From: Bugula neritina | Taxonomy: Eukaryota; Bryozoa; Gymnolaemata; Cheilostomatida; Bugulidae | Assembly: GCA_964035545.1 (NCBI GenBank) | Contig: OZ037765.1 | Span: 4,709,698-4,773,697, forward strand | Direction of reading: 5' to 3' | DNA length: 64,000 nucleotides | Shown: piece by piece, positions 3,901 through 44,800 of the stretch | Position numbering within the stretch: the first letter of the stretch is position 1 | Layout: every line of letters starts with the position of its first letter | Notes under the pieces: model-generated | Database searches by the model: none | Told to the model about the DNA's origin: nothing | What the model saw: the letters and a program-made list of their open reading frames with translations, nothing else | Program-made: the position numbers and the translations under genes

Positions 3901-6900
3901 CTCTACCTCCTACCAACTCTACTTCCTACCAACTCTACCACCTACCAACTCTACTACCTACCATCTCTACCAACTCTACTTCCTACCAACTCTACCACCT
4001 ACCAACTCTACTTCCTACCAACTCTACCTCCTACCAACTCTACCACCTACCAACTCTACTTCCTACCAACTCTACCACCTACCAACTCTATTACCTACCA
4101 ACTCTACCTCCTACCAGCTCTACTTCCTACCAACTCTACCTCCTACCAACTCTACCTCCTACCAACTCTACCTCCTACCAACTCTACCTACTATTACCTA
4201 GCTATTACTCTCTTTTTACTAAAGAAATGTGTTAATTTAAGCTTCTCTCAGCTACTTAACTATCTTACTGTTTCATAAATCAAACCACTTGCTATTTATT
4301 GATTTTAAATGTGTTTTGGGTATAAACAATCAGTCTTTTAAGCAGCATAAACAAAAGAGTTTTTCTTTCTTCAACTTATCTTAGATTATTTGAAAGCTAG
4401 CTCTGGTTAAGTTGAATTGTGCCTTAGTTTGCGAGGAGTTCGTCACTAATTATAGCAATATTCTAACATATACAAGATTTTCATTCTGCATTTTAAGATA
4501 TAAAAACCTAAAAAAACTTTCAACCGACTAAGTAAGTGATTGCGTTCTAATTTGCACGCACTTATTTTCATTCAGCTGATTTACAAGTAATGTGTAATAT
4601 GTTCTTTTTACCTATAGCTTCTGTCATTAGTAGCAAATCAGTAATTCAATATAATATTATAGTAATAGACAGTATATATTTTCGAATCAACAACTTTTCG
4701 AGTCAAAATATTAAGATGATAAAGATGGCTTGCTTAGCTTTCTTAATCACATAAGATGTAGTTAAATGGCAAAATAGTAAAAGTTGAAGGTTACCTTCAT
4801 TGTGCAGGTGTTCCAGAAGAAGTTCACAGAAGTGGTTGTCTCATTCAACAACCAGTCTAACGTGACAGACTCTGTCAGCTCGTTCACTCAAACGTCCCTC
4901 GACGAGCTGATTCAGGAGTTCAGTGAGATATCCTTTGTCAGGATTGGAATAGGGTATGGCTTGATGGTGAGTAGAACAATGGTGGGCTGTAGCTATTTGT
5001 TTCTATTTATAAATAATCTTAATTATTTAAATACTCTACACTGTTGAGACGTTTCTTCCAAACTATTTTAAGGGAACTGAGCAGATATTTCCAAATTTAA
5101 ACGTATGTTATTAAAGAATGAATGTTTTGATGTCACTTGAAATTTCAAACTATTTTTGTGTAATTCAATAAAGTTTTGTGTTCGTAAAATATTATGTAGG
5201 CTGAAACCTAAAATATTTTAACTTATGGAAAATACGCCAAGCTTGGTTTTTATAGTAATAGTTTTTTAAAAGAGAATAGAACATAACTCCAAATACTGCA
5301 AAGTCAATTTATATTTCAAGTTATGGAAAATACGCTAAGCTTAGTTTTTATGTGTATGGCTTTTTAAAATGAATGGAGCATAACTCCAAATACTGCAAAT
5401 AAGTCAATTTATTACACTTGTTGTACTGATAATATTTCAGCTGCTATACGCCATCCTCACACTGATGAACTGCTGTAACCCAGTACACTCACACGCTGGA
5501 GCTGGAATATGTGGTGTTGTGTTGGTATCTTTGAGTGTGGCGGCTGGACTCGGGCTATGCTCACTTCTAGGACTACCCTTCAACGCTGCCACCACTCAGA
5601 TAGTGCCGTTTCTAGCCCTGGGTCTTGGAGTAGACGACATGTTTCTTATGGTTCACACTTTCTCTCAGATATGTTCCTCAGGCTACACTCACTATCAGGT
5701 CAGTCTAACAGTCTACTTGCACACAAATACTATTTCAACAATTCTTCTTTCAACTTTTTTTAAAGCGATATGCTTACAATTTATAGAATAAAATGTACAT
5801 TAGTTTAGATCATCATTAATATATGGATTTTACCTGGGATCTGTTTAGAATTTTAAACAAAGTTATTTAAGTAGAAAAATTGTATTGTGGAATTTATATT
5901 ATAGAGATGTATAAGCATTCACAATTATTGTTTTAGGAGTCTTTTCAATATAAATTTTATATTTAACTTTTTTAAATATATTTTTATCCAATTAGTTTAA
6001 AAAAGCAGAATATATGTTTCAAAAAAATAATTAATGAAATTGTTGATTGATAATCATAAGTTAAACTTATTGTTTCAAACCATTTCTTTGCTGTAGCTAC
6101 ACTTTTGTTGTTATAAAAGAAGGCAGCTTCTAACTATATGTCCAGAAAAAGAGGCAATTTATATCTTATGAAATTTTTTCTTTCAACTTATAGAAGTTGC
6201 CTACTCAAATCTTGCATAGTTAAGTATAGACATTATACAACAGCCCAAAGTTACTATATTATGAGATGGTAACTCAGTGATATATAAACCTGACATGTCT
6301 TTGTACTGCAGGACCAAGCTGGGGAGTTGGTGAAGAGAGCCGGGTGCACTGTTCTACTGACTTCTCTGAGTAACAGCGGTGCCTTCCTCATAGCAGCTCT
6401 GGTACCCATACCAGCTCTCCGGATGTTCTCACTGCAGGTGTGTGTAGATACAGCGTACTTGCTGTTGCTACTGCTGTAGGTGAGCTAGTATCTTACTGTT
6501 GTAGGTGGGCTAGTATCTTACTGTTGTAGGTGGGCTAATATTCTACTGTGTTGTAGGTGAGCTAATATTATACTGCTGTAGGTGGGCTAATATTCTACTG
6601 TGTTGTAGGTGAGCTAATATTATACTGCTGTAGGTGGGCTAATATTCTACTGTGTTGTAGGTGAGCTAATATTATACTGCTGTAGGTGGGCTAATATTCT
6701 ACTGTGTTGTAGGTGAGCTAATATTATACTGCTGTAGGTGGGCTAATATTCTACTGTGTTGTAGGTGAGCTAATATTATACTGCTGTAGGTGGGCTAATA
6801 TTCTACTGTGTTGTAGGTGAGCTAATATTATACTGCTGTAGGTGGGCTAATATTCTACTGTGTTGTAGGTGAGCTAATATTATACTGCTGTAGGTGGGCT

Positions 6901-9900
6901 AATATTCTACTGTGTTGTAGGTGAGCTAATATTATACTGTTGTAGGTGGGAATACTTCTTCTGTTCAACTTGATCACAATTCTTCTCATCTTCCCCGCCA
7001 TTCTCAGCATTGATGCTTGGAGAAAGAAGAATTTCCGAGTCGATGTTGTGTGCTGCATAGAGTCGGCTCCTTCTACCAAAGTGACGGACATATCGGCACT
7101 TTCATCCCCGTCCCCTACTGATGACAAGCAGAATACAGTAGTTGTCTCTGAGGTTACAAGTGGGTAGCCTACTACAGTGATACCTGAATGTAGCCTGATA
7201 CATAATGTAGCCTAATTTCTAAATCAGATATAGATTATAAGGAGGGGAGATAATATTACCTTTCGTAAATGTAATAATGTGAGATAATATCTCATTTGCA
7301 AATCTGTACGAATGTTTCATCTATATAATACGCACAGTATATTTGCTAGCTGTAGTGCTAACCAGAGTCATATAACATTATAACTACGTAAAGTTTGACT
7401 GTAGCGCCAGACAATATAGTGACAAAGTTGGCTGCTACTGACTACACAGAGTATGAGGGTACTGCATCATACTCTGACACTGGGTCTTCACAAAACCTCA
7501 CCGAGACCAGCAAACCTTCAGCATGCTGTGGTAAGTGAATTCTCTTTCTAACAGCATATAGCTAAGGAGTCTATATAAAGTATAGGTTGGGATGTATCTA
7601 ACAGTAAGTTATATTACTTTACTTCATGTTACTACAGTTTTTAGTGTCAGTTTATATAATGTAGTTTCTGATTGGTTAGCTGTAAAGAGACTGTCCACTG
7701 TCAAACGACCTTCTTTATGTAATTTCAAGTTCCGTGACCTAAGCCTAACATTCACTCAGCATGCTGATGAATATCAATCAATCACTGGTAAATTTAGCTT
7801 TGAAAAACCTTTGAATTTAAATTTGCAAAAAGATTTAAGAAAGATTATCGTAGAACATTGTCTATCTTGAACCAACATAGCTGGTTTAATTATATTGATA
7901 GCATATATTATATTGATAGCTGTTAGCCCATTGATGTCTTCTCTCTTTGCTACAGATAATAAGACATCAAATAAATGTTCTGCCTTGTCGCTGAGCTGGT
8001 TGGTTGACCAGTTCTACCTGCCACTTGTGGAGACGACTTGGTTCAAGGTCGTAGTTTTTGTATTTAACACACTTCTAATATGCATCAGTATCTACGGCAT
8101 CACTCAGGTTGGTTCTTGAGTTATTAAAACAAATTCACTAGAATACCATAGTTGACTACTTTTTTAAATTTTGTTTTAAGGAATGGAAATGTTGTTTAAT
8201 TATTTTTATATACCTTATAGCGTGTTATAAAGTGGAATCCTTTTTTGGTGATGCTGAATCTTGCCTATGAACATGAAACTATTGAAGTAAAAATTAACCA
8301 AATTTCAGATAAATAGAAAATAGACTATGTATGCTATGCTATTTGCTATGTATGCTATGTTATTTGCTATGTATTCTATGCTATTTACTATGTATGCTAT
8401 GCTATTTGCCTTGTATGCTATGCTATTTACTATGTATGCCATGCTATTTGCTATGTATGCTGTGCTATTTGTTATGTAGGTTAAAGTTGGCATGGAACTT
8501 ACTGATATTGTTCCAAAGGAAACCAACGAGTACAGATTCCTTAAGGCGCAGAGCGATTACTTTGGATTCTATGACATGTATATAGTTACCAAGGTTGGTA
8601 ATCTTTATATTCCATTACTCGTATATAATTATTGGAATAGTTGATGCGTTCCTTGATTTCTATGTTGTTTATTGTTACTGAGGTTGGCTATAATATGTCT
8701 TGCAGGATAACTTCCAGTACCAACTGCCAGAAAATCAAAAACTTATAAGAGAGCTTCATGGGAAGATATCTCAAGTCAGTTATGTCATACGGAAAGATGA
8801 CGGGAGTTCTCGGGAGTTTTGGCTGGACTTAATGGTGAAATGGTTAAGAGGTTAGCCGTAGTGTTCAATGTATACTAAAATTTCCTAATGGGCTAAAATA
8901 TGAGAATCCTACAGCAGTGGAATGTTTTTAGCCAAAGTCTCATAAACTGTCTTCTTACAAAACATGATTAATTAGCCTCTAAATCTTGTTGGTAACCTGT
9001 GGTGCAGCAATGAGCAATTAGCTGCTCTAATATGCCGACTGGAGATAATGGAAACATGGACAGCGCATGTAAATATATGTGACCATCTATAGTTAAATGA
9101 GAAGGGGAGACTATTACTGTAAATTATTTGATGGTTTGAAGTATTGGTAATTTTATTTTTTGTCTGTAAAATAATCTCGTATATTATTATGAAGTATCAT
9201 GGCTGAGCTGTTAAACATCCATACTGTCTTAGGAGTTCACTATAAAGTTGTATTTAGGAGTTATCATATCACATTTGATAAAAGTGTTGTCTTCTCTTGT
9301 AGATTTACAAGAGAGTTATGATAATGATGTAGCAGCCGGGTTTTTCCACTCTACTGGGTGGTATTACAATGCCTCAGATGATGCCGTCCTTGCCTATAAA
9401 CTCCTCATACAAACAGGCGACACAAACAACCCTCTGGACAAAACTCAGGCCAGCTATAAAAGACTAGTGAATGATGAGGGAATCATAGCCTCAGACGCTT
9501 TCTATAACTACCTCACAGCGTGGGTGTACAACGACGTCCTCGCATATGAAGTGTCTCTGGCATCTATCAGACCAGAGGGTAAGGAGTGGTTCTATGTGCC
9601 CGGAGAAGGAGATCTGCTCATACCTAAAGCTCCTTCTATTCAGTTTGCTCGAATGTCGTTCTTCCTACACAATCTCGTCAACACAGAAGAAATAGTAAAG
9701 TGCATACGCGAAGTACGAAATATTTGTGAAGATTATGAAGAACTTGGGCTAGACAGTTACCCATCAGGACTTATCTTTACATTTTGGGAACAGTACATAA
9801 ACATCAGATACTATTTACTCATATCACTAGTATCAGTATTAGCATCAGTTTTTATTATTATAACATTTATGATGATGAACCCACTCGCAGCATTTCTCTT

Positions 9901-11515
9901 GGTGTTGACCTTGAGTGTGATTACAGTAGAGTTGTTTGGCTTCATGGGTCTGATAGGTATACAGTTGAGTGCCGTTCCCGTCGTGATTCTTGTAGCATCA
10001 GTGGGTGTGGGGGTAGAGTTCACTATCCATGTGATGACTAGCTTCATAACTAGTATAGGTAATCGCCAACTCAGGACTAAACGATCTCTTTCCTTCATGT
10101 TTGCTCCAATAGTGCACGGAGCTATTTCCACTCTACTTGGTATTATCATGCTTGCTGCGTCGCAGTTTGACTTCATCTTCAGGTAATTTTGCTTATATAC
10201 CTCTGCAAGTAACCACACTTACTAAAAGTATTTTTACTCATTCTATAGGTTTTCTACCAGTTAGCTTTCTTATATATCCTTAGGAAATTTAAAAGTGTGT
10301 AAAGTCAGTAAAATTAGACTGTAGACCTAATCATTCTAGACAGCATGTTTTACTCATGGTAAACACATGCTATAATGCAGGGAAGTAAAAAATTTCCAAA
10401 AGATTGTAGTGTTTAGGGTCATTTAATCTTACATAATCTGTCCAAATGACAACTTTGTCCTCCTATATTTTATAACATGGACTTATTTTCTCACAGCACA
10501 CATTATTTTTAATAAATCACAAGGTTTCAAATGAGTGCCAATGGTAGTTGATCTTTAATAAAAATAAGTTGTTGTCAAAAACTTTACCCCAAATACTTAC
10601 ATGCTCAACTGGTATATCATTTATTACAGCATGGTATGATAGTTGTATGTGTATACATGTTTCTCATAAGTTTCCACAATATAGTTGCCCGTAAAAGCAC
10701 TGTCATGTGATCTACTGCATATCCAAGCTGTTTGTTTATATTTACTGCGGTTGTTCTGTATTTATGCATGTTGTGTGCTTGTAGGTATTTCTTCCTCAGT
10801 CTATTGGCTCTGGTAGTGCTGGGACTATTCAATGGACTCGTCTTCTTCCCTATATTAATATCCGTGTGTGGGCCATCCGGTGAAGTAGAGCCCGAGAACT
10901 TATCCGACTCATCTATACCATTAACAAGGCTGATCATCACCCCTCCCTCTTCACCAGAAGGACATCGAGCTAGGAGAAGAAGGTCAAGTACAAAGAAGCC
11001 TCTCGCAGACCCTGCCGTCCTCTCCACCATTACAGAAGAACAGTCTGGGGCCTCTGCAGCCTCATCTCACTCTTCTAACCAAGAAATATGCAGTAAAGTA
11101 ACTCCAACAGTCAATGTGGAGACAACTATCACCCCGTACTTAAAACATTCATCTACACAAGGAGCTCAGTCTAAAAATGTTAGTATGATATAAAACTGAA
11201 ATAGTTACAATCCTCCTACTTTTTGTAATTTAATTATAAGACATACTTTTTGTGATTTAATTTTATAAATGTGAATAACTGTACTTTACACTATTATTGT
11301 TGAACATAACATAAAATGGGTGTATATACTTTTAGGGAACCAGGTCGTTTACTAAAGTGAAGACAAAGGCTACGGTAACTGTGGAGGTCCACACGGAACT
11401 GCCTGGATGTGGGGAACACGACTCCCCTATTGTTACTAAAACTTCTCATTCTCAGCCTACACAGGTAGAGGAAACGAATGACTTGGAGGATGCAGGATGT
11501 GTGACAACACTTTAG
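941..11515 (+). CDS. PTCH1: Patched (Hedgehog receptor), C-terminal two thirds, 14 exons
   Basis: A 12-pass RND-family sterol-transporter-like membrane protein that binds Hedgehog and represses Smoothened. I read exons at 941-1061, 1990-2173, 2711-2868, 4808-4966, 5441-5698, 6312-6437, 6946-7159, 7405-7530, 7956-8107, 8480-8593, 8706-8850, 9303-10182, 10785-11178 and 11336-11515 (stop TAG). All junction phases agree. Diagnostic segments are [13 protein letters not shown] in exon 2, the sterol-sensing/RND segment with [10 protein letters not shown] in exon 5, TDIVPKET in exon 10, and in exon 12 the second extracellular loop, FWEQYI and GVGVEFTIH of the second RND half. The last exon keeps a TATVTVEVH segment seen in Patched tails. 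The donor after 7159 (GTGGGT) was chosen because it is the one that keeps phase. The N-terminal part, including the start codon, is outside the window. Dispatched and NPC1 fit less well because the GGC-MHW and TDIVP blocks are Patched-specific. Confidence 0.95.
1440..1745. repeat. Degenerate CTAT/TGTGCTAT microsatellite in Patched intron
   Basis: About 300 bases of imperfect repeats built from TATGTGCTAT-like words, about 380 bases into the intron after exon 1. The open frames across it are low-complexity products of the repeat and not genes. Confidence 0.85.
2876..4195. repeat. 16-bp minisatellite, about 80 units, Patched intron 3
   Basis: Tandem unit CTACCTCCTACCAACT (16 bp) with few variants. 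It begins within about 10 bases of the exon 3 donor at 2869. Because 16 is not a multiple of 3 and the unit has no stop word in any of the three forward phases, it stays open in all frames. The exon 3 frame therefore runs on as a Leu/Pro/Thr/Tyr-rich open frame to 4278. This is intronic sequence, since exon 4 (4808) joins exon 3 in phase and continues the Patched protein. Confidence 0.97.
5225..5412. repeat. Direct tandem duplication of about 95 bp, Patched intron 4
   Basis: Two neighbouring copies share the words TATGGAAAATACGC, AAGCTT, GGTTTTTAT/AGTTTTTAT, CATAACTCCAAATACTGCAA and GTCAATTTAT in the same order. The second copy ends shortly before the acceptor of exon 5 (5441). Confidence 0.8.
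6474..6945. repeat. 52-bp minisatellite filling Patched intron 6, ends at the acceptor
   Basis: Two alternating half units of about 25 and 27 bp, each ending in CTGTAG or TTGTAG and followed by GTGAGCTAAT or GTGGGCTAAT. The last TTGTAG is the real acceptor, with exon 7 starting GTGGGAATA at 6946. The array therefore holds copies of the true 3' splice site together with the first bases of the next exon, and it fills almost all of the 508-bp intron. Confidence 0.95.
8330..8479. repeat. TATGCTATGCTATTTG-type microsatellite ending at a Patched acceptor
   Basis: Imperfect repeats of about 22 bp (CTATGTATGCTATGCTATTTG-like) run directly into the acceptor TTATGTAG at 8472-8479, just before exon 10 at 8480. 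Confidence 0.9.
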
Positions 11516-15333: not shown

Positions 15334-16908
15334 TTACACTTCCTCGGTAGAAGGCAAGACCACTTGAATCATGTGACCTTTAGGTACCTTTGTGTCTTCA
15401 ATTTTAAGTTTATCCTGAAGGACTTTGCCACCATAGAACCAGCGCTGTACGCCGTCGATATTCTCAACTTTAGCTAAAGTCTGTTTAATCTGCTTGATTG
15501 TGTGTTTGCTGCGAACTGTCAATTTCAGGTCTTTGCCGCTAGACAACCGAAGTTTAATAATCACTTCCTCCCCGGGATCTTCTTCGGCGCCGTCTGCTAG
15601 ATTGTCGTCTTCTGAATCCTCGCGGAGAAGATTTGACGGATGACTCAACACGTAGACAGGAAGTTGGTATCTGTTTCCCAGTTCATCGTAGCAGTCTGTG
15701 AGATACCCTTCACAAGCATACATACAATTTATCAAATAACTGCATTAAAACCTGTTGAACATGCTTGGACCAGCTGTGAAGTTTAATCTAATAAACCTTC
15801 AAACAATGAATTGCAATTTACAAATTTAAAGTTCACGAGTACTTGGATATACATGCTGTTTATCATGACCGACGACCTACCTCGTGGCAATGTAATACTG
15901 GCACCAGATAAAATAGCTTGAGCCAAATCAAAGTCTCTTGATTCACATGCATAGGCTGCAGCCTTCAGGGCGTCCCAAATCTCCTTTCTCCCGTCAAACG
16001 CTGGTGCCGTGTCCCAGAATTCATCTCTCTTGCTAGCAAGCTGACCAATAGTGATGGGATTTTCACTTTTCCACCGAGGCATCTCGTGTTTTAAAGGCTG
16101 ATTTTTACCAGTTGCTGGAATCATTTAGTGTAAACATATTTTACCAAATATTGGCATTAGAAGGAAAATAGATAAGATAAGCAAAATTGCTTACATCATA
16201 GCATAAATACTTCAACGATATTAATAAACCAGCTACAATCTAAAGTTATGACTATTACTAATACTATTAATAATATGAGAATATTATACGAGTACATGAG
16301 AATATTATACGAGTACATGAGATTATTATACAAGTACATGAGATTATTATACGAGTACATGAGAATATTATACGAGTACATGAGATTATTATACGAGTAC
16401 ATGAGATTATTATACAAGTACATGAGATTATTATACGAGTACATGAGATTATTATACGAGTACATGAGAATATTATACGAGTACATGAGAATATTATACG
16501 AGTACATGAGATTATTATACAAGTACATGAGATTATTATACGAGTACATGAGAATATTATACGAGTACATGAGATTATTATACAAGTACATGAGATTATT
16601 ATACGAGTACATGAGAATATTATACGAGTACATGAGATTATTATACGAGTATATGAGAGCCTTATACCTGTTCATGAGAATATTAGACGAGTACATGAGA
16701 ATATTATACCTGTTTACGATGATACTACACATCAGAAAAATCTCAAGAAGACATTACTACACAATAAATACTACATTATAATGTCTTGGGTGAGTAAAAG
16801 AGCCTTACTAGAGTGTGAATGTTGTGCATTGGACCTTCTGCCGCCCCGACTTGATGGACGGCTATTCAGCTCCTCGCCATCAGTCTCGGCAGACATACAC
16901 GAACCCAT
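15334..16908 (-). CDS. UBTD2: Ubiquitin domain-containing protein UBTD1/2-like
   Basis: A small adaptor that in vertebrates binds UBE2D-class ubiquitin-conjugating enzymes. Exons on the minus strand are 16908-16809, 16114-15881 and 15707-15334, phases 1 and 1, total 235 codons, close to human UBTD1/2. The protein starts MGSCMS, a glycine-2/cysteine-4 context suited to N-terminal acylation. Next come the conserved N-terminal domain ([41 protein letters not shown]), the linker block [14 protein letters not shown], an acidic stretch, and a C-terminal ubiquitin-like fold ([17 protein letters not shown] to GHMIQVVLP). Exon 1 is only 33 codons. A 21-bp minisatellite sits in intron 1. The gene lies head to head with MMS19. 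UBTD1 versus UBTD2 assignment is uncertain; invertebrates often have a single pre-duplication gene. Confidence 0.93.
16262..16720. repeat. 21-bp minisatellite, about 21 units, UBTD intron 1
   Basis: Units alternate between ATGAGAATATTATACGAGT-AC and ATGAGATTATTATACAAGT-AC forms. Because 21 is a multiple of three and the unit lacks stops in one frame per strand, it gives periodic seven-residue open frames on both strands (MRILYEY-type and NILMYSY-type). The array lies wholly between UBTD exons 1 and 2 and is not a gene. Confidence 0.96.
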
Positions 16909-24800: not shown

Positions 24801-27800
24801 ATTTGGATATGATAAGAGACCTTCTGTCCAGCAGTGTAGGCAATGTATATTCTCACAAAGTGTCAGCTTTGGATACGGTCATCGAGCACATGAAACACTC
24901 GGAGGAGGCAGTGTGTGAGTCAGCGTTACGCTGCCTTGCTGAACTGGCAGATGCTGCCGGCAGCAAACTAGATGAAGTCAGTCAACCATTGTTAGACATG
25001 GCCACCAATTCTGAGTCTACTGCTATAAGGTAATTTGTACTGTCAGTGTGGTACTGGTGGTAGTACTAGTAGCAGTAGTACTAGTACTAGTAGTAGCGGT
25101 AGTAGTAGTAGTAATACTAGTGGTACTAGTGGTAGGAGTGGTAGTAGTAGTAGTAGCAGTAGTACTCATAGAAAAATTAGTTAAGGTATTAGAAGTCTTG
25201 GTAGTCATAGTAACAGCTGCAGAGTTTTCAATTATGATAGCGGCATTATTTACTAGGCATGAAACTCAGTAGTAGGAGTTGTCTTCTGCCGTCAGGTCAC
25301 CACTCTAATGTGTTTTGTATGTAGAAATACGTCCAGCCTTTGCCTAGCAGCTTTCTGTAAGCACAATGAAGAGGCCAGAGATGAAGTGGTATTTAAAGCC
25401 CTTCGCTCACGTCTCGTAGAGGTTCAGACATTGGAGTTGTCTACTCTGAATATTCTAGATGCTATAGTCGCACAATGCAGCTCTGATGTACGTCTGTATG
25501 TGCTAACACAGCTACTTATCTCCTTTGAACAGTGTCCACCAGGTAAAGTAACCTTTGTCTGCAGAAACCTTTGTTTCCAGTATTTATAATTGAAGCTAAA
25601 TGTCGAAACTACTCAACAAATCAAAGTAATATATTGTTTTGGAATTCATCGAAAGCTATTATTTGCATGAGGTTGTTGGTAACTGAGTGACCATGATAGT
25701 TTTTTTGTATAAATGCGTGAATAGGGTAAATATTTACTTGCAAAATACTGAGGTATTGTCCACTAGCAGGCTTTCTGTATTTTTCCTTGTTGAACAAGAA
25801 ATTATTTCAAATAAAAGGTGGTTTTTACTTTCAGTTTTGTTTGTTGAATTATTTGACGATATTTTCAGATGAATACTAAACCCTGTAAGCTTCAATGCTA
25901 GTTCATTTCTATGATTTCTGTTGTTTCATTTCTTTTTTTTGTGTGTGGAAGGAACCCCCACCGATCACTAGAAATGAAATATAGCTTTTGTTTTGGTCCA
26001 ATATGAATTAAATTTTGCATTAGAATTGCAATTTGCTACTTCAATTTATAAAGCATTTATGAAATTAGAGTTGTCTTCCTTTGTTGTAGATAATAATGTC
26101 CTCACGGATGGAATACTTTCTAGCATACTCTGTGCTTTGTCCTCTCCACTTAAATTAGACTCGAGCATCTTAACGTCATTCATGCAGACGTGTTTTGAAA
26201 TAAAATTGCCAGAAATTGCAGACTCTACTAGAATGCTGATGAGTGACATCATCATGCAGATTGTAAACTTCACTGACAAAAGGTAGATCAGGGCAAACAA
26301 TAACGTTGGCTAAACTAATATGTTGATGTAGCCAAAAGATCTAAACTGCATGTGTTTGAACCTGTGGCTATAAAACAGAAATATTCATACAAAAATGTAA
26401 ATTGTTTAGCAATATTTATTGCAGGCATCTATAATATCAGTTGCTAATTTATAGGAGTTGCAACTTTAACAACTTAGTGCGTCAGCTTCATCATAAATAT
26501 TTAAGTTCTGATTCTGTTTGTAGTTATCTGCCCTCCATAGCCGAGTCAGCTTTGACAGCGTTGAATACTCTTCCGTATAATGTGACAGCTTTACAGTCGG
26601 TGCTGTGTTCTCTACCTCATGGGGTATGTTGGTGAATCTTCAATTAGTCCACTTATCACATCCTTTATAGCTTACAATACAGCGAGTCACCTAAGTTCTG
26701 AAATTTTGCCAGTTATATTCCTTATATAAAATATGAAATCAACGTATGTGGACGGAATGTTACACATTGTGTGTTTGACCAGGTACTGGATGATACTCAG
26801 CTGTTAGATGTTTTCCAACCGCTAACTTCTCAGTCACCATCACCTCTCATGCGGCTGTCAGCGTGTAAAATCTGTGCATCAGTCATTAATAAAAGCACTA
26901 AAAGTAAGTCACTCAGTCTCTGGACACACTCATCTACAAAAACCCATTTACCTATAACACGGGCTTTTCAATGATAAGAGGGAGTAACTCCTCAATGTGT
27001 TTTCTCATTGTCTAAAATTTCACTCTTCTATTTTTATTAATTGTTTAAATTTTAAAATTGAGATGTCAAAAGTTATTTTATGAGAGTTATCTCTCTACAA
27101 AGTACACTTTTATTAAACCTTATAATGCACTCTCTGATTGTAGCTGAAAACCTGTTGAAAGATATTCTTTCAGTATTCGACTCCCCCACAGTTAATACCT
27201 TACCATTATGTTTTTGGACTACCAAAGCCTTAGTTCTTAGAAATCACCATCTATCACAGGGATGCGTGTCTAAGGTAGGCCGTACCAGCATTGAACCTAG
27301 CAGTTGTTCTGGGTATTAGCTATCTGGGCTACTTAGTAGTTACTACAGTTTTACAACTGTTTAAGAAAGAAAGCATGCAACCTCTTGTACGTTGAATACA
27401 ACTGCACTGATTTAAACTATAGAGCCGAAAATTTATCTGCAATTTGTCTTCTCTTGTTTTTCTTGTCGAAGTTTCAAACTTACAAACTTATATTACACTA
27501 TCACTACTTATATTACACTATCACTACTTATATTACACTATCACTACTTATATTACACTACCACTGCTTATATTACACTATCACTACTTATATTACACTA
27601 TCACTACTTATATTACACTATCACTACTTATATTACACTATCACTACTTATATTACACTACCACTACTTATATTACACTATTACTACTTATATTACACTA
27701 TCACTACTTATATTACACTATCACTACTTATATTACACTACCACTACTTATATTACACTATTACTACTTATATTACACTATCACTACTTATATTACACTA

Positions 27801-30800
27801 TCACTACTTATATTACACTATCACTACTTATATTACACTATCACTGCTTATATTATACTATCACTACTTATATTACACTACCACTGCTTATATTACACTA
27901 TCACTACTTATATTACACTATCACTACTTATATTACACTATCACTACTTATATTACACTATCACTGCTTATATTATACTATCACTACTTATATTACACTA
28001 CCACTGCTTATATTACACTATCACTACTTATATTACACTATCACTACTTATATTACACTATCACTACCTATATTACACTATCACTACTTATATTACACTA
28101 TCACTACTTATATTACACTACCACTACTTATATTACACTATCACTACTTATATTACACTATCACTACTTATATTACACTATCACTACTTATATTACACTA
28201 TCACTACTTATATTACACTATCACTACCTATATTACACTATCACTACTTATATTACACTATCACTGCTTATATTACACTATCACTACTTATATTACACTA
28301 TCACTGCTTATATTACACTATCACTGCTTATATTACACTATCACTACTTATATTACACTATCACTACTTATATTACACTATCACTACTTATATTACACTA
28401 TCACTACTTATATTACACTATCACTGCTTATATTACACTATCACTACTTATATTACACTATCACTACTTATATTACACTATCACTACTCACTTATATTAC
28501 ACAGGTGGTGAGCTGGCTAAGAAATCCTATGCTATCAGCTGATGTAGCTCGAGGATTTGAAGTTATACTGAAAGATTACAGGGATGTATTGAGCAGTAAA
28601 CAACATCCCAACATTAGGTTGATGTATAAACAAAGGCTATTTATGTTGGTGTTTCCTGTCCTTCATGAGATGTCCTCCTCCATTGAACAGGGTAAATAAG
28701 TTGCTGTATCTTTGAATACAAAAAGCTTAGTGGTTGAATTAATTATTGTTGAAGTCACTAGAAAGGTAAAGAACAGTTTTGGTCGCTGAGATAGTCAAAG
28801 TAGTATGCAAAGATTAGCTGGTTTTCTCCTGCAACTAAGATCAGATGCATTTAATCATGGGAAAGCAGGGAAAACAGAAACGCTTTGTATTGTGGCTGAA
28901 TTGCAGTGAGCACAGAGTATGGAGAGCTGATGTTAGTCTGTATGATCAGAGACCATTTATATGAGACATTGTTATACTCTTTGCTAATTTGTAGAGCTGG
29001 TAGCTAATGTACACATAGCAGTGACGAACTTAATCAAATATATACCTAAACAAGTGGCATCTACAGAAAAGCAAAAGGTATGCCATAACTATTCCACAGT
29101 GTAAAGTGTATCCTGGGGTTGTATACAGGGTGTTTGTGGTGGCATGTTTGTTAAGCCAGAGTAGAAATATTGTGAAGAAGTTGAAAGATTATGCTGTCAA
29201 GAAATTAACAACAAAGCAGCCAATAAAACTGGGTTAAAGTACAGATACTACGAACTTATTTACTTTGCTGCTAATAATAAATACCAATTTGTTGAACCCT
29301 TCTGGACCAAAATCATGTGCTAAATTAAACTGAGGAAGTTTGAAATAACTTTTTGTTATAATCTATAAAAGCGAGCATTACTTCCCTTACTATATTTGTA
29401 GTCCGAACTAGGGTTAAAGGTTAAGTTTAATTCTACTTTCAACATGCTTATAAAAGTAGTTCTCCTTTGCTAATTTTAACTGTTCATCCAAATGTTGAAG
29501 TTGTATGCCCTCTTCAGAGTCCAATTGTGATCTAATAAAATAGTATCTGTATTCAAAGAGCTTCAACTTTGACTGTAGTTACTATGATGTGTAACACATA
29601 ACTTTATGTTTAAACAGCTGATGACGCTGTTAGTGAAACTACTCCAGTCTGAAGACATCGAGGTGCTACAACAAACTCTACAGTTGATAGATGCTGACTC
29701 CGACAGCGGTCTATTAGAGCAGCATGTGGATACTCTACTGCCAATCCTAATTAGACTGAGCATTTGCTCCCCTAGCATGGTAGGTATATACTGCAATATG
29801 CTCCCCTAGCATGGTAGGTATATACTGCAATATGCTCTTCTAGCATGGTAGGTATAGACTGCTATATGCTCCCCTAGTATGGTAGGTATAGACTGCTATA
29901 TGCCCCTTTAGTGTAGTAGGTATAGACTGTTATATGCTCCTCTAGTATGGTAGGTATAAACTGCTATATGCTCCTCTAGTATGGTAAATATAGACTGCTA
30001 TATGCTCCCCTAGCATGGTAGGTATAGACTGTTATATGCTCCCCTAGCATGGCAGGTATAGACTGTTAGATGCTCCTCTAGTATGGTAGGTATAGACTGC
30101 TATATACCCCTCTAGTATGGTAGGTATAGACTGTTAGATGCTCCTCTAGCATGGTAGGTATAGACTGCTATATGCTCCTCTAGTATAGTAGGTATAGACT
30201 GCCATATGCTCCTCTAGTATGGTAGGTATAAATAGACTTGTGTAAAACACTAACAGATACATAAAATGCAGAAATTGACCCACTAATGATTTTTGTTTGC
30301 TATTTTTGAAATAGAAATAACAAGTTACTAAAATTACTCAATGAATTGCTAGCTTTATTTAATAAAACCATACGATTTGTAACTGACTCATCTTTCAAAC
30401 AAGTTCTTCGTTTCTCAACATACCTGCATACTATTACTATCCACTGCTACTAACTAACTGTGTTTGCAGCAAGTACGCATCTCCTCCCTGAAGTGTCTAG
30501 CCACCATGTCTAAACTGACCACCCTCCTCATCGTACCTCACATGAACTCCGTCATCAAGCAACTCCTTCCTGCCCTTGATGATAAGAAACGTCTAGTCAG
30601 AAAAGAAGCTGTCAAAACTAGAAATATTTGGTAAGATTTTATCATTACACTCTCCTATTTCCTCACTTCGTCATCAACTTAATGTTTTCATTAATATTAA
30701 GGTGCAGTAGGTTCATTTCTTGTTGGTCGCCTTGTGCCCTTTTTTAAAATGCACAAATGTGGATATTGTTGTTATATAAAAGACACTTTAAGCTGAATTC

Positions 30801-35846: not shown

Positions 35847-38800
35847 ATGTCGTTTGTTGGAAAATCCCTTAGCGAACCTACTCATACTGATAGTGATACT
35901 CATACTCATACTGATAGTGATACTCATCCTCATAGCCAGGAAGATTTTTTGGAATTGGAAGTTCTAAAAGTAAAACTTAAAGGTAAGCGTGAGGCTCCGA
36001 CTGAGTCTGAGTGAGAGCTAAACAGTAAATGCCAAATAAGTGTTTAATGTTGTTATATTGAGTACTGGGGGTTTTCAACTACTAAGTACCTAATATAACA
36101 CAGGGTATGCATACAATTAGAATATTCTACATGTGTATAACTATAACGCGTTGATAGTTGGTATCACACTTACCGGTATTATTCTTCTCTTCAGTCACAT
36201 CTGCTTACGACGGACTCTAGTGTACAAGAGATCTGGAATCCTGTACCAAAGCTGCCACGTTTAGACAGAAGGTTCTCTCATTGCTTACTTCTTGTAGCCA
36301 GAGCTCCGTCACTCAACATAAAAGGTAAGGGTACGAAAGTGATAAGTATCTTATAGCTAAAGAGCAAAGTGCTATAATCCTTAGGCTAGAAGTCCTGTTG
36401 CGAAACATCATATATGTGGAAGTATACTTTTAGGGCTAATGTTGTACCATCTCCAATAATTAGTTGTATGTCCTGTATCATGGTGTATAACCTTGTAAGT
36501 GTGTGTCTATTTAATGTTACTGCTATTCTATATAGTAGGCATACACTATGTATGGAAGAAAAGATATATTATAAATGGGGAAAAGATAGAATACATGGAA
36601 GTATTCAATACAAAACAATATTAAGCTCTAACTAAGGTTGCAGGGAAGCAGGATGCTATATCTGTAGTATATTATATTGTAGTGGTATAGCATACAAAAT
36701 GTCAAGTATGAAATAATACTTGAATACATCTATAGCATCCTCCCCAATTTAGAGAAAGACACCTCCGGTGGCTTATGCTTGTTGAAAGCATAAACAATTA
36801 AGCATTACTACTCCGAAATAAAAAAGGAAGAAAAACCTTTCACAATAAAATGAGTAAAATTTGAAAATTATATATACTAGCTGTTATATAGGCCTATATG
36901 TATTCTATTAGTACCAGTGAGTTCATCGATTAGAGTGAGTATTTTTTTTTTATTTCTGGTCACATAATCTTTTTTTTTTTCTCACTCATTTTTTTACATT
37001 GTTCCCTTTTTTTGTAACCATATTTTCATTATTTTTTTTTGATGAACTATATCTGTTGATGAAATAAAAAAAAAAACAAGACTTTAGCTATAAGTAAACA
37101 TTTACTAAAAATACACTAATTATGAATATTATAAACATAAGTCACAGGAGGTGGTGATAACAATCGACTCCGCATTTTATCCAACTTTGAATATTTAAAA
37201 ATTTCGCTTGATTTGATTCAATTTTCCCAATACAGAGCTTACTTAATTTTATTTTAATCAAAAGTCAATTTGATTTCTGCAATTTTTAGTAAGTTTGTTT
37301 TATGAGAAGCCAAAACTGTAGAAGATGTTAACCTGTAATGCTAAAAAAATGTCAAAGTACTCCCCCCTGTGAACAACAGGAAAACTCCTGTGTTCCATTG
37401 AAAAACTTGATTATTAATATGGCAGTAAATATTAGTATATCTGGTATATCTGCATGGTTATGTAAAGTAATGAATCGGGTGTCAATATGGTTATTATGTA
37501 TGTAAGTGTGAAGTAGATAAGCTACTCAATGCTGCTACTAGTACTGGGTATGTCGGCTTCTAGTCATTGCAGTTTCGGATAGAGGGGGCGATATTGCTGA
37601 ATTGAGGATGCAGGCGAAGGAGCACTAGGTGTTGGTCTAGTGTCCACTTCTACCATATCTACGAATTCTGTGAAGCTAGTCTGATCGGAAGCGTCCAGGA
37701 ACCCATCCTGTTCTCCTGCCTCAACATCATTGTCAGATGTGTCCTCTGTGTCCTCAATGTCGATAGCTGCTACAATATTTCTCCTTCGCTGGCAACAACG
37801 ATTGTATAGAAAAATACCTAGCAATGCAATTGACAATATGGTGACTAAACAGTTGGATATCAAAGTCCACAATTCAAACGCACTCGCCACATGCCCTCCA
37901 AACAGGAAAGCAAACCAAGAGTTCCCTATCAAGTTCTCTTTCGACTCAATGACATTGTTTTTAAAGGAAACATGTCTGTTGGATTGAATTCCCATCGCTT
38001 CTAGAACTTGTTTCTGTCTTGACAAAGTAGCTAGCAATTCATTCAAGTCAGAGTGTGCTGACAGGTCAGGCCAACTTAGGTGATGGGCACGGCTGTAGAT
38101 TGTTTCATGGATTTTAAGAGGGTGTGCACCTAGAGAAATTCCAGGTAAACTCAGGTCTTCTCCAAGATTAACCTTTTCTACGGTACCATCTTGGTTGTAC
38201 CAAAACAATTCATCGTTCATCCGGAATGCAATTGCTGGTTTGGATGTGCACGGTGCTTGTGCACTTTGTGTGTGAATAATGTTATCCATTGGATCCATGA
38301 AACCAGTGTGCGTTTCCCCACTGAGTTCCAATTCTACTGGAATAAACATGGTGCAATTATTCTCTGACATAGGGAGCATTTTGTAGCTTTTTATTTCCGT
38401 ACATGGGTAAATCTTTAGAAAACCAGGACCAGACTCAGCTCGGATATTGCTTACCCCTAGTAAGTATCTGGCTGTACTCGTCGCATGTTGCTCTGCGAGT
38501 AGAGCTACGGTTTTGAGGACTTGAACTATGTTTTTACAGGTATATTGATAAGATGTCCAATACAGTTTTGATTCGATTCCGAGAATCTGTACTTCTAGGG
38601 ACTGAGCTATAGCGTCCATGACAGCATATGCTGGACTCAAACGACTCCTGCGGTCCCATTCTAGTCCAGGAGCCTTTTCAACGTGTTGCGTTAGAGTGGT
38701 GTTGAACAGGTCTGAAGTATTAAAAACAACAAGCAAACCTTGGTCCGACATTGTGCCTGACTTGCCGTCACAAGTGGTAATATTCTCAAAGGGGTTCTTG

Positions 38801-41800
38801 CGGAAAGTTAAAGCCAAGTCTTCTTGATCACTAACAAAATAGCCATCAAGGAAACTTCCTTCAACTTCATACCACTCCTCGTATGGACAATTAGCTTCTC
38901 GTTCTGTTTCCCATATTAGCATAGATTGATCTCTGAGTTTGCAGTAGCCATCAGAGTATGAGTTGCAATGGGAAACGTCACCTGCGGTGCTTTCAAAAGA
39001 ACTTTTCCCAAATGTCTTGTATACCGAAGCTGAAATATAACTGCATTGTTTCACTTCAAAGTGATGCCACTTGCAGCACCAAACATAAGCTAATCCTGCA
39101 GCTTTGTTTTTTGTAGTGTATGCACCATCACTTCCAGATAGGGCACCTTCATTGCATCTCTTCTCTAGTACCATATTTTCGCATTCGCTGCGGCTAACTG
39201 GCAGTGACCGGTGATATTCCTTCTTAGTTTTCACGTCCGTAAAAAGTGATATCTGTGTGGAGATGGTGTACAGCATTTTAGTGCATTGATAGGCTGCTGT
39301 ACGCCATTCCACTACATTTTTTCTGTAAACCGTAGCCTTCACAGGGGTTGGCGCATGAGTACTATTGGGTCTTGGAGTCGGATCACATTGGAAGTCATGA
39401 TTCAATTGATGAATAGATGGTCGCCTCACTTCACTGGAACTACACACCAAAGGATACCTGGCATACTGCGGCTGTGCCTTCTGTGTAGTGTTAAAAACAG
39501 TCGTGTTAGACAATGCATTCACTACTGCTGTCAACACTAACACAGATAGTATGCTGGTGAGAGTCTGACTGGCCACAGCTGGCCCCAGGAGAGCTGTGCC
39601 TTTTACTGGTGCAGTGGCTGCGGCTACACTGATCAGCATACACATTGCCACTAGTGCCAACATGTAGGTTTGCATTGTTGACAAACCAGTCCCCCGTCCT
39701 CTGCTTCTTTTTCTTTTGGGTTTCCTGTCAGAGATGAATTCATTTGGAGAGGTTTGAATTGAATTCACTGATTCCTCAGCTATGTCCTCTTGAGGAGGCT
39801 GAGTCAGAAGGGCCTCGGCAAATTCATCACCCTCTAGGCTCTCAATAGCATTGATGTGTCGCGTCCCACTGTAATCTTTGGTTTTGCTCTGTTGACCAGA
39901 GCACTGATTACGTTGTGGTTGCTGGTGAGAGGGTGGTTGAGGTGGGCAGGAAGGAAGTTGTGCTGGTGGGTGAGGGTACCGGGGAGAAGATTGGTAGTAG
40001 GGTTGAGGCTTCCCCTGGTTGAAGTATCTACCTCGTCCTCTTCCTCGGTTTGTTGTTCCTCTCCATCCACCACCTCTACCTCTGTCATTTCTCATTCCAA
40101 ACCCTTGACTCTGTTGTTGGTGTTGTTGGTATTGGGGCTGCCGTTGCTCTTTAGCTTGGTTGTGCACTAAAGTTTTCAACCATTCTACCTCTTTTTCTAG
40201 CTTTTGAACTGAGTCAGATGAGTTTACCGTTGCCACTATTCTCTGGGTGTCATCTCCCATCTGATGTTCTACATTTTCTTGCTTAAGTGCAAGTTTCCTA
40301 GCACTTTCTACAGTTGTGGGGTTTTTAGAGAGGAGGTGCCTCTTCAATCCTGGTCGTAGACCAGTAATAAAAGCAGATACTAGCACGCTATCTTTATGTT
40401 CAAGGGAGAGGTCAGGCCATTGGGTGTTGGCAGCTTCCATAAATTCGCCATAATATTCTAGTACGCTTTTCTTCCCCATCTTTATGTTCCACACTAATTT
40501 GCTTGAGTCGACAAACTCTTTGCATAACCTCTCTCGAAGACTCTTGTAACTAATCGCTAGCGTGGGCTCCTTTGCAACTACTGCCTTGAAAACCTGATAG
40601 GCACCACCTTCCAGGGCATCTGGAAGGTTTTGTGCCATCTGATAATCACTAAGCTGCAGTTTTTTTATGTTCTTTTCCCATTTTTCAAGAAATAACTCCC
40701 AGCTGGAACCAGGAGTTCCTTTAAATTTGATGTTCTGTGGAGGCTCTCTCAGAATAATAGGTGAGTTGTGAAATTTTCCCGCATCAGCTACTCCAATGCT
40801 GTGTTCAGATGGTGTTTCAGCTAAGCTTTGGATTGGTGAGTTATGAGGTTTTGGTGATCGTTGATTAGCAATGTGGGGATAACTTGATGTGAATTCCAAG
40901 GTAGTATTTGTAGGTGTAGGTGCTGGTTGTTCATGAAGTTGTCTTCTACTTGTTTTTCGTGGCGTAACTGGTGGAGGTAGGCGAGTTCGAGGCGGCGGAG
41001 TTGGTTCCGGCATGACATTTGCATCATTGGTAGATCTTTGACCCAAGGTGAGATTCCGAAAATCTTCGAGTTGTTGTTGTAACTTTTGTTGCTGGATTGT
41101 GAGCCGATGCTCTCTTTCCAGGAACTCATTTTGCTGTTGTTCTTGAACAGCGCTCTGTTCCTCATAGAACTTTCTCCGTTGGATTTCAAAACTTTCCTCC
41201 ATCTCGTACCGTCTCCTTGCTTGCTCTTGTCTTTCTACCTCGAGGTGCTGAAACTGTTCCGCCAGTTCATGCTCCTTCGTTTGTTGATACTGTCGCCATT
41301 GTTCTTGCTCATATCTCCATACATCTTTTTGCTTTTCCTGCTCCTCTACAAGTTTCTTGTATTCTAACTCGTAGAACTTTGCAATTTCATGCGGGTTCAT
41401 TGGGAGTCGTCTTTCGGACAACTCAACCAATGCGTGAGCTCCTTCTCTTGTCGAATCTTGTGAGAGAGTAGGAGTGTCTAAGCCCGTGGCTACATTTGTG
41501 GCACTACCTGGTGTCGTAATAGTACTAACACTAGTGGTGACTGTAGTTGTGGCGGTGGTCACGGTTCCGGTACTCATATTGTTGGTGCGTGACTTATAAT
41601 TTCCGACTAATAAGTGAGTTCAGCAGTACTTGTTTGCAATGTTATTAATGTTTATACTTTGTGCTAATGTACAATTATGTGTCTATTTCTTACTCAAGGA
41701 TATGTGTGCATGTACTATCCTGTATATATGACAAGGTGTGGCTTGCAGTTAAATACTTTAAGTTAGTGGAAGTCTTTTATTATGACCTCTGTACACTACA

Positions 41801-44800
41801 AATTATTCAGTTATTTCTGCTATTCAAGCCTAGTCTAAAATCTAAATTTAGTCAACCACAGTAATTAATTAGTTTGATATTCGTACTATGTAGTAAGGCG
41901 GTTGTTGTACTTAGGTACTATAATACGTAATAGGACAATGCTTTGTACTATAATACACTGACTGCACTGCAGGTGTCGCAATACTTAGTACTGCAATGTA
42001 ATATTCGTATAATGTGTAAATATATAATATACAATTCAGTGATGCTCTGATTGGCAATGCACTGCAAAGTAAATTGTAGGTAATTATAAGAAATTATGTT
42101 TAGGACAAGACTATTAATTATAGTACTTGTCAGCGCCTATACCTCAGCAGACAGTCGTAGACTGAATCTGTTTGGAATTTATTAACTGCTAAATAAGGAG
42201 CGTGTTAACCTTATCTGCAGCTCACCCAATTATACAACTAAATTAGCCTATTAGCAAAGGGAGGTAATTCACTTCTACAATTAATTATCTCTAAGCTAAA
42301 AAAAATTAAAACTGGCTTGTTTTCACCTTTTAAGCAGCAGAGAAAAATTAAACATATAGGAATTCTCGCTCTATTACTATTAGTCTATGGATGTATATTG
42401 TTTTGGGGTAATATGTAAAAGTTGATCCTTTTTGGCTTCAATTAATATTTTCTCAGTGCGGCCTAGCACTTCTACGGTCTACCCACGAGCAAAATATGAG
42501 CTCAGCGAATATAAAACCTACAGGAAAATATTAGTGAACAGCCAAATGAGGCCTGATCAACACTATCTAAAGTATTAATATAATTTTATCCCCTGGCGCA
42601 CGGGGTGGTTAACCAAGTGTCAAGAGCTATTAATATAAAGCTGGACACAATATTTAACAAGGGCAACCTTGGGCAAAAGCCAGTGCCTCCTCCAAAATGT
42701 TATATTGAGTACTGGGGGTTTTCAACTACTAAGTACCTAATATAACACAGGGTATGCATACAATTAGAATATTCTACATGTGTATAACTACAACGCGTTG
42801 ATAGTTGGTATCACACTTACCGGTATTATTCTTCTCTTCAGTCACATCTGCTTACGACGGACTCTAGTGTACAAGAGATCTGGAATCCTGTACCAAAGCT
42901 GCCACGTTTAGACAGAAGGTTCTCTCATTGCTTACTTCTTGTAGCCAGAGCTCCGTCACTCAACATAAAAGGTAAGGGTACGAAAGTGATAAGTATCTTA
43001 TAGCTAAAGAGCAAAGTGCTATAATCCTTAGGCTAGAAGTCCTGTTGCGAAACATCATATATGTGGAAGTATACTTTTAGGGCTAATGTTGTACCATCTC
43101 CAATAATTAGTTGTATGTCCTGTATCATGGTGTATAACCTTGTAAGTGTGTGTCTATTTAATGTTACTGCTATTCTATATAGTAGGCATACACTATGTAT
43201 GGAAGAAAAGATATATTATAAATGGGGAAAAGATAGAATACATGGAAGTATTCAATACAAAACAATATTAAGCTCTAACTAAGGTTGCAGGGAAGCAGGA
43301 TGCTATATCTGTAGTATATTATATTGTAGTGGTATAGCATACAAAATGTCAAGTATGAAATAATACTTGAATACATCTATAGCAATGTTAATCTCAAAAG
43401 TTAATAATATTTCAAAGTTTAGTATAAAGTAGAAATAGAATTACTATTAGAAGTAAACTTTTAGTTCTATGTTCTAACGAATAAATATTTATATAATAAA
43501 TATAATAACTCATAAATCATAAGACCTAGTCATAAGTCATAAATGATAATGATAAATATAATCGTTATCAATTTATTCTTTACTCTTTAGGCTAAGCTTT
43601 AACTTTAAGTTTATTATATTATTCATTATTATTTTGATAATCATTATGATTATAGTTATAATTTACATTATCATTATCACTTTATGCATTGTCATTGTGA
43701 TTCAAGATTTAAATCACCATCATCAATTAATATGAATAATATTATGACGATTATCAGTATCACTATGTCTTATACTTATAGTAATAGTTATAATTTATAA
43801 ATAAAAATAAAATATAAGTTAAACTTGATATTATCGTGTTTTCAATACCATTTATTAATTATCAAAGAAAAAGTGAAATTCAATATCATCAACATGAACA
43901 CTACTAGTACTACTAGTAACTGTAAGAAGCATCGTAAAGTTAACCAGAAAAATAAAGTAACATATGATAATAATGTAACTATCACTATGACCAATAAATA
44001 TTATATTTTATTTTGTTACAATTATTAATATTACTAATAGTAATAGTATTGGTATGGCACTTCAACTCATAAAATCACTACTGGATACAATGATTGCTGT
44101 AAAATTAAATTTATTATGGTTATTAATATTAGTATTACTATAACACTAAATATTACATGACTAAGTATATGACTACTACTAGTACTAGGTATAAGTATTA
44201 TCGCTACACTATGAGGATGTATATCAAACTGCTGCTTTTAATATTAGTATTACTTATACTATTGGTAATAATAGTATTGGTATGATTTGCAGCATGGGTA
44301 TCCTGCATTATTTTTAGATATGGCATTTCCATTTTTAATGCATAATGCGTATAGTATCAGTATGTTTGCATTTTCACAGATGTTGAAGAGAGCACCAATC
44401 ATGTTCTTGGCCTAGTAGAATCTCTTGGGTAAGAATTTTTTTATAATCTTTTAATAATATTTTAAAATTTCATACTTTTTTTATTAATATTGTCATAACT
44501 TGTAAATAAAGATATTACTGGTAACATAAATACTGTTGTTAACCTATTTATTTCAAGCTCAAACCTTATTTAATTATTTATTTGCAGCCCTTCCCTGACA
44601 TCATTAGATACAGAAACTCGTGCAAGTGCTACACAATTATTGGCTGACGATATAAGCAATTCGAAAGGGTTGAGGCGGAACGACCTTGAACCATTAGCAG
44701 ATTTCTTCTGTGACAGAATCAAAGATCATCACTCTATTGTTCCACATGTTCTTACAGCATTCTCTACCCTGGTAACATAATGTTATAATTAGCATATCTT

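Follow-up and report, generated by a model that had tools for sequence, protein, structure and literature searches.

In errantiviruses the genes run gag-pol-env, and in both errantiviruses and retroviruses env comes last and is usually expressed through a spliced RNA. The gag-pol-env order of retroviruses is documented (PMC10309623), and the env-like genes described earlier lie downstream of the polyprotein (PMC7642597). Here we analyse a long terminal repeat (LTR) retroelement of the bryozoan Bugula neritina, located on the minus strand of a 64,000-nucleotide stretch of contig OZ037765.1 (positions 4,709,698 to 4,773,697 of assembly GCA_964035545.1; the window in what follows), together with its relatives in the same genome. 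Like errantiviruses and retroviruses, these are LTR elements with gag, pol and env genes; whereas the env-bearing LTR elements and retroviruses have been described with env last, here env lies within the gag frame and pol, where present, follows env.

Other described systems share some traits with these elements; the cited accounts are drawn on in part, and what we say of them refers to those parts. Anakin elements are LTR elements with a chuvirus-kind glycoprotein, as the Bugula elements seem to be, but they belong to BEL/Pao (PMC7642597), and the follow-up on them reports no clear evidence, in the part consulted, that Gypsy elements captured such glycoproteins (PMC10084718). TelKA2n of bdelloid rotifers is likewise a non-autonomous element that has lost most of pol and kept env. 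However, its env is of the paramyxovirus type and forms ORF3, downstream of pol, the C-terminal part of its gag is also lost, and its description as consulted contains no Gag-Env fusion (PMC5408684). Gammaretroviruses (PMC11166343) and Tca2 (PMC2194720) also have pol behind one stop codon, although in them this stop ends Gag, whereas in Bugula it ends Env.

The closest relationship is with Ty3/Gypsy elements (Metaviridae), with which the Bugula elements share a Gag of the PF03732 type, 4-bp target duplications and, in the most complete copy, the order protease (PR), reverse transcriptase (RT), RNaseH, integrase (IN) as well as an RT-RNaseH closest to that of Ty3. Unlike in Ty3/Gypsy elements, Env is in frame between Gag and Pol and the stop ends Env instead of Gag. 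We consider it likely, judging from the sequences, that the window element arose by deletion within a Ty3/Gypsy-type lineage organised as LTR-gag-env-[UGA]-pol-LTR, which would express a readthrough Gag-Env-Pol polyprotein and whose derivatives would be mobilised in trans. We found no description of the gag-env-pol order, of a Gag-Env fusion or of the capture of such an Env by Gypsy elements in a literature search whose coverage was thin for subscription papers and preprints, and novelty is thus unproven.

Gene order in the pol-bearing relatives

We searched the host genome assembly (215.85 Mb, 295 contigs), where Cn stands below for a contig and Lnnn for a locus. The search with Env gave 22 rows, and the elements are treated here as three families, A (with the window copy), B and C. 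The gag-env-pol order is complete in two family B copies, decayed in one family A copy and partial in one family C copy:

i) L022 (C7, family B), in which both frames are open. A Gag-Env frame of 1,220 codons ends in one stop and is followed, in the same reading frame, by a frame of 1,288 codons where Pfam recognises PR, RVT_1, RNaseH, H2C2 and rve. This copy is 12,317 bp long, its LTRs are identical over 634 of the 639 bp compared and its target duplication is TAGC. Compared by sequence with solved structures, the RT-RNaseH of this copy has its best match in Ty3 (1.8e-58).

ii) L023 (C5, family B), which is broken but has its genes in the same order.

iii) L026 (C1), a decayed family A copy whose Env pieces are 82-91% identical. 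Behind Env we found a protease piece (96% over 386 nt), an RT (62% to family B) and, by eye, an integrase-like frame. Furthermore, its 3' region (L035) matches the 3' untranslated region of the family A copy L010 at 92-93%.

iv) L029 (family C), frameshifted in Env. A CCHC knuckle, recognised by eye, is followed by a dUTPase (4.5e-32), by Env and then by an integrase (3.8e-07, 30.8 bits, under the curated cut-off of 32.6). There is no room for an RT between Env and the integrase. In this element (L029:2850-7117) the dUTPase lies between the knuckle and Env; in the related derivative L037 none is visible there by eye.

Thus, the order of errantiviruses and retroviruses was not found, env being ahead of pol in L022, L023 and L026. 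Regarding Ty3/Gypsy membership, the PF03732-type Gag is present, and the PR-RT-RNaseH-IN order occurs in L022 and not in the window copy. The LTRs of family A agree with those of family B at 292 of 622 positions, and the end TATAACA is common to both.

We also found shortened derivatives outside family A. L027 and L028 (family B) carry one identical deletion through env and pol, which has no GT-AG ends, and lie at different sites with duplications CAGT and GTAC. L033, also of family B (C5:9050500-9057500), consists of an 867-codon frame with Gag at its start and an integrase tail at its end. In L037 (family C) Gag is retained together with the beginning of Env, and the 5 kb examined contain no additional long frame. 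L036, whose gag matches at 31%, was examined over 4 kb, where every remaining frame is shorter than about 130 codons. Deletion is therefore a habit of this lineage, and among the derivatives it is family A that kept the whole Env.

Family A and its loss of pol

A search of the whole assembly with the LTR of the window element gave 46 rows, 18 of which are near-complete LTRs at 95% identity or more; 13 of these belong to seven full copies and five are solo. The full copies are the window copy, L009 (C2), L010 and L011 (C8), L012 (C9), and L013 and L014 (C8). L010 and L011 have common flanks and so represent one duplicated insertion. L013 and L014 (C8:2512534-2527328) form a tandem LTR-internal-LTR-internal-LTR array, in which the two internal regions are identical and the only target duplication is the outer one. 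This leaves five independent full insertions, all with their own 4-bp target duplication. No solo LTR has an internal piece within 2.5 kb, and four of the five show a 4-bp duplication. Given 18 near-complete LTRs and six more copies with the same Gag-Env region, the window element is not a chance arrangement.

The paired LTRs, TG...CA ends and target duplication of an LTR retroelement are all present. An earlier note on this DNA, made from the window alone, had described matched 687-bp LTRs with an ATGT duplication, a polypurine tract and a single unbroken 1,337-codon Gag-Env open reading frame (ORF), and each of these held: the LTR pair of the window copy has one difference in 687 positions, a purine-rich word precedes the 3' LTR in all seven full copies, and the ORF is intact. 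The genome search that the note had proposed yielded a multi-copy family of young insertions, with 0-7 differences in 687 positions between the LTRs of a pair and about 1-2% divergence of the ORF from the window copy. The frame is intact in three of the five independent insertions (window, L010/L011 and L013/L014) and broken in L009 and L012. Beyond Gag-Env the window copy has no ATG-started sense frame of more than 114 codons and no antisense frame of 100, according to a check of frame lengths, the Pfam scans not having covered the leader and tail.

Pfam and hydropathy bear out the note's description of the ORF as a Gag followed in frame by a cysteine-rich glycoprotein with signal and transmembrane segments. 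The coiled N-terminus of Gag (window 41284-41520, minus strand) weakly matches a solved DDI2 domain (0.0023), which may be chance. Regarding Env, it resembles at the Pfam cut-off the fusion proteins of Monjiviricetes (the chuvirus kind): PF24664 (Monjiviricetes_fusion) matches the last third of the family A ORF at 1.4e-06, with 27.0 bits at a cut-off of 27, and the Env piece of family C (L029) at 3.9e-08 with 32.2 bits. As Env taken as a single 713-aa piece had no Pfam match up to 0.1, the label depends on the trimmed family A piece and on the stronger family C match. The Env of families A and B is related to that of family C (hhalign 99.3%). No relative of Env was found by sequence among solved structures, and a pattern search of IMG/VR picked out 49 stretches, but none could be confirmed.

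The note had also stated that the element lacks protease, RT and integrase. For RT and integrase this is correct in all seven full copies, because their internal regions consist of the window's pieces plus about 435 bp at most, which leaves no room for these genes. The absence of protease, on the other hand, is true of the window copy alone. Directly after Env the other six copies have about 435 bp that the window copy lacks, and these encode an aspartic protease in the Gag-Env frame after one UGA (PF13975 at 1.5e-13 for the L010 piece); the protease was read in L009, L010, L012 and L013, and in L011 and L014 it was deduced from the length of the frame. By sequence, the L010 piece comes closest to Ddi1-type proteases among solved structures.

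The protease of family A stops at the protease-RT connector, and its frame runs on into the 3' untranslated region. Pol was lost here by a deletion downstream of env. Its junction can be placed to within an 84-nt stretch. Of the copies with a common junction, which the note had proposed to count, we found four among the five independent insertions; the window copy resumes only past the connector, since a deletion of its own removed most of the protease together with the spot where the others lost pol. The simplest reading is that its pol loss was the same event. Family A thus has the traits of a non-autonomous element, without RT or integrase, at several sites and with one common deletion in four of five insertions.

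We then compared the copies for selection, leaving out of the pooled ratios of nonsynonymous to synonymous rates (dN/dS) and of the counts of segregating sites L011, because of its L010 flanks, and L014, whose internal region is identical to that of L013. Over the five independent pol-less insertions the pooled dN/dS, which draws on non-independent pairs, was 0.28 for gag, 0.17 for the linker and 0.12 for env, and without the window copy it was 0.30, 0.16 and 0.12, respectively. For the protease behind the stop it was 0.31 (four copies); protease counts exclude the window copy, which lost it, and the pooled protease figure also excludes L026, decayed there. Against an expectation of about 72% nonsynonymous changes, the segregating changes were 31 synonymous and 31 nonsynonymous plus one stop in gag (binomial p 2e-4), 12 and 8 in the linker (p 0.003), 39 and 18 in env (p 3e-10), and 10 and 8 in the protease (p 0.015). 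Since one junction is common to four insertions, the differences among them post-date the loss of pol, barring recombination with pol-bearing copies. The earlier note's suggestion of selection on both structural genes is supported by the dN/dS of the two halves.

As a control we compared L027 with L028, where Env is truncated. Their gag has a dN/dS of 0.16 (8 synonymous, 4 nonsynonymous), whereas the Env remnant has 0.65 (5 and 12). The remnant differs from family A env with a Fisher p of 0.005 and from its own gag with 0.07, on small counts. Constraint on the truncated family B Env thus looks relaxed, and Gag appears constrained in both families.

The stop codon behind Env and the proposed polyprotein

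The Env frame ends in CAA UGA CUA in all seven family A copies, in L026 and in three of the four family B Env ends examined, a set to which L030 did not belong; the fourth, L024, has TAG, and its sequence changes at the stop. This context is common to families A and B despite 41% Env identity and poorly aligning Env tails. The longer word UGACUAG, with an AG just past the stop, occurs in family A, L023 and L025, whereas the C7 copy reads UGACUAACC. One further match to the stop word, in L035, is on the opposite strand and away from Env, and we took it as chance. UGA CUA(G) promotes readthrough in fungi and animals, and the combination of UGA and CUA, frequently accompanied by a 3' stem, is known as 'type II' readthrough (PMC4207609, PMC5133446, PMC11166343; consulted in part). 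We infer that the UGA-CUA at the end of Env may be read through in the same way, for which the constraint on the protease frame behind it speaks indirectly.

A stem after the stop is predicted in part of the copies. For the 120 nt that begin at the L022 stop, the folding energy is -44.6 kcal/mol, with z -4.7 (0 of 200 shuffles) and -4.8 in a second run, although by raw folding energy this window comes third among the 124 of the coding region. The predicted stem is weaker in L023 (z -3.5 and -2.8) and L025 (-2.3), the decayed L026 reaches z -2.7 at 180 nt, and in the pol-less family A copies L009, L010 and L012 no stem appeared past the stop (z +1.6 to -1.6 over 60-350 nt). Because the stem is absent from pol-less family A and weaker in L023 and L025, the stop context is the better-supported signal.

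We propose the following model. One genomic RNA would give Gag-Env as a single chain, and the internal hydrophobic segment would thread it into the membrane so that Gag and the Env tail lie on the inner side and Env on the outer. The UGA-CUA would be passed by a few per cent of the ribosomes, which would thereby extend the cytosolic Env tail by the protease or, in full elements, by the whole of Pol. Gag, Env and Pol would then enter the particle as one membrane-spanning polyprotein, to be cut by the protease. The pol-less family A copies may supply their own Gag-Env while a pol-bearing relative provides RT and integrase in trans, mobilisation in trans being suggested by the absence of both enzymes. 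The earlier note had proposed a parasite of a full-length partner; a pol-less multi-copy family under constraint was indeed found, and use of the partner's enzymes would be consistent with the data.

On balance we lean, with some reserve, towards a wider statement: that the lineage (A, B and probably C) makes Gag, an Env of the negative-strand-virus type and Pol as one membrane-threaded polyprotein by UGA-CUA readthrough, with no splicing of Env, and repeatedly spawns pol-less derivatives, one of which would keep a selected Gag-Env(-PR) on a borrowed polymerase. If the polyprotein is true, this would be a different way to bring Gag, Env and Pol to one membrane in set ratios. It would also be a second route to the gain of an envelope, in which env is inserted where gag ends, ahead of a leaky stop. 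The pol-less derivatives are furthermore a natural experiment in the persistence of defective elements, with dN/dS 0.12 for the intact Env and 0.65, on 17 changes, for the truncated one.

Several results weigh against these proposals. Half of Env is absent from L027 and L028, which moved nevertheless; movement thus does not always require Env. No tRNA end matched the candidate primer-binding site, searched with one exact pattern. Both proteases read at L010:6318-6824 and L022:2877-4166 have the active site DAGA, the usual motif being DTGA or DSGA. In family A the first hydrophobic stretch of Env is directly followed by another, which family B has not and which could alter the proposed topology. 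As regards the nature of Env, family B gave no PF24664 match, and the AlphaFold model built from a single sequence reached a pLDDT of 37. To these we add points given above: the unmatched 713-aa Env, the low score of the family C integrase, a single and decayed pol-bearing copy in family A, a pol-loss junction seen in four of five insertions with its spot deleted in the window copy, pooled dN/dS from non-independent pairs, the missing stem in pol-less family A and the raw-energy rank of the L022 stop window.

Of the alternatives, the one that survives best, still unlikely in our view though to be taken seriously, is that Env is made apart, its message being either spliced or initiated internally, and that the Gag-Env fusion is incidental. 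A methionine just ahead of the hydrophobic segment is conserved between families A and B, which speaks for it, but in family C (L029 and L037) no methionine is found by eye in the 50 residues preceding the segment. Moreover, an open frame connects Gag with Env in the window copy, L010, L013, L022 and L037, and the linker is constrained in family A. Because family C has no methionine near the segment, even if A and B have one, we favour the Gag-Env fusion.

It is also improbable that the full-length elements splice Env out, with the unspliced RNA giving Gag-Env and a spliced one Gag-Pol, so that readthrough would be unneeded. The AG just past the stop in family A, L023 and L025 could serve as an acceptor, and as L022 has Gag-Env and Pol in one frame, a spliced Gag-Pol could be in frame there. 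However, the C7 copy lacks that AG and yet keeps UGA CUA, and the bases upstream are not pyrimidine-rich, as judged by eye and with no systematic splice-site search.

A little less probable again is that family A is not mobilised in trans, its copies either stemming from one burst and being inert or having multiplied by segmental duplication. The common flanks of L010 and L011, the tandem array of L013 and L014 and the small number of independent full insertions fit this idea, whereas duplications at their own sites in all five full insertions and in four of five solo LTRs, and an ORF divergence of about 1-2% with dN/dS far below 1, speak against it. We consider it very improbable that the host co-opted Gag-Env for a function of its own: the strong constraint without pol would agree with it, but there are several LTR-bounded copies at different sites with young LTRs, and two of the five independent insertions are already broken (L009 and L012).

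Finally, the origin suggested in the earlier note, reverse transcription of a spliced Gag-Env message of a gag-pol-env element with exact removal of pol, would explain a common Gag-Env frame that lacks pol, but it is hardly credible and we reject it, because it needs pol between gag and env while pol follows env in L022, L023 and L026, and furthermore L022 likewise has Gag and Env in a single frame, six of seven family A copies retain the protease after env, and, on checking the junctions for splice sites as the note had advised, the readable one (L027 and L028, family B) has no GT-AG ends, that of family A being placed only to 84 nt.

Features of the window and minor observations

Table 1. 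Features of the family A element in the window (positions of the window; element sense is the minus strand)
Feature	Position	Strand	Remarks
Family A element, window copy, whole	36051..43384	-	7,334 bp; LTR match and 6 further full copies
5' LTR (element sense)	42698..43384	-	687 bp, TG...CA
3' LTR (element sense)	36051..36737	-	687 bp
Target-site duplications ATGT (plus strand; ACAT in element sense)	36047..36050 and 43385..43388	.	
Candidate primer-binding site TGGAGGAGGCACTGG	42680..42694	-	Placement just after LTR
Leader, LTR to ORF	41578..42697	-	1,120 bp; 98.1-98.7% identity in other full copies
Gag-Env ORF	37564..41577	-	1,337 codons and UGA stop
Gag capsid domain PF03732 (Retrotrans_gag)	40351..40617	-	Pfam 8.1e-06; residues 321-409, first third of ORF
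RG-rich nucleocapsid-like region and linker to Env	39706..40200	-	
Env, cysteine-rich	37567..39705	-	713 aa; 41% identity to family B Env
Internal hydrophobic segment at Env start, after polybasic stretch	39604..39660	-	Hydropathy; also in family B and L029
C-terminal transmembrane segment of Env	37807..37863	-	Hydropathy
UGA stop then CUAG, readthrough-type context	37560..37566	-	
Scar of the window copy's own deletion	37492..37525	-	Other 6 copies about 435 bp longer here
3' untranslated region	36738..37491	-	Closes with polypurine word AATTGGGGAGGA at 36738-36749

Apart from the element, the window contains Patched-like exons of a multi-pass membrane protein, recognised by eye, at 9248-11193 on the plus strand. 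Long frames made of short tandem repeats lie at 2704-4278, 16196-16781 and 27385-28542; that at 16196-16781 is open on both strands, and they are probably not genes.

A tunicate host was considered and rejected. A Pfam GH6 search gave nothing here but was equally empty in its controls and so says nothing on the host; the mitochondrial COX1 follows, as judged by eye, invertebrate code 5, with AGA for Ser, ATA for Met and AAA for Lys. Regarding the assembly, the small contigs may hold associates of the animal, as COX1 copies suggest: the copy on C17 is without UGA codons and possibly bacterial, and those on C196 and C65 are other mitochondrial-type copies. A further COX1, on C6 (11174072-11175412), has nine UGA codons, as in the C295 copy, and is possibly a nuclear insert.

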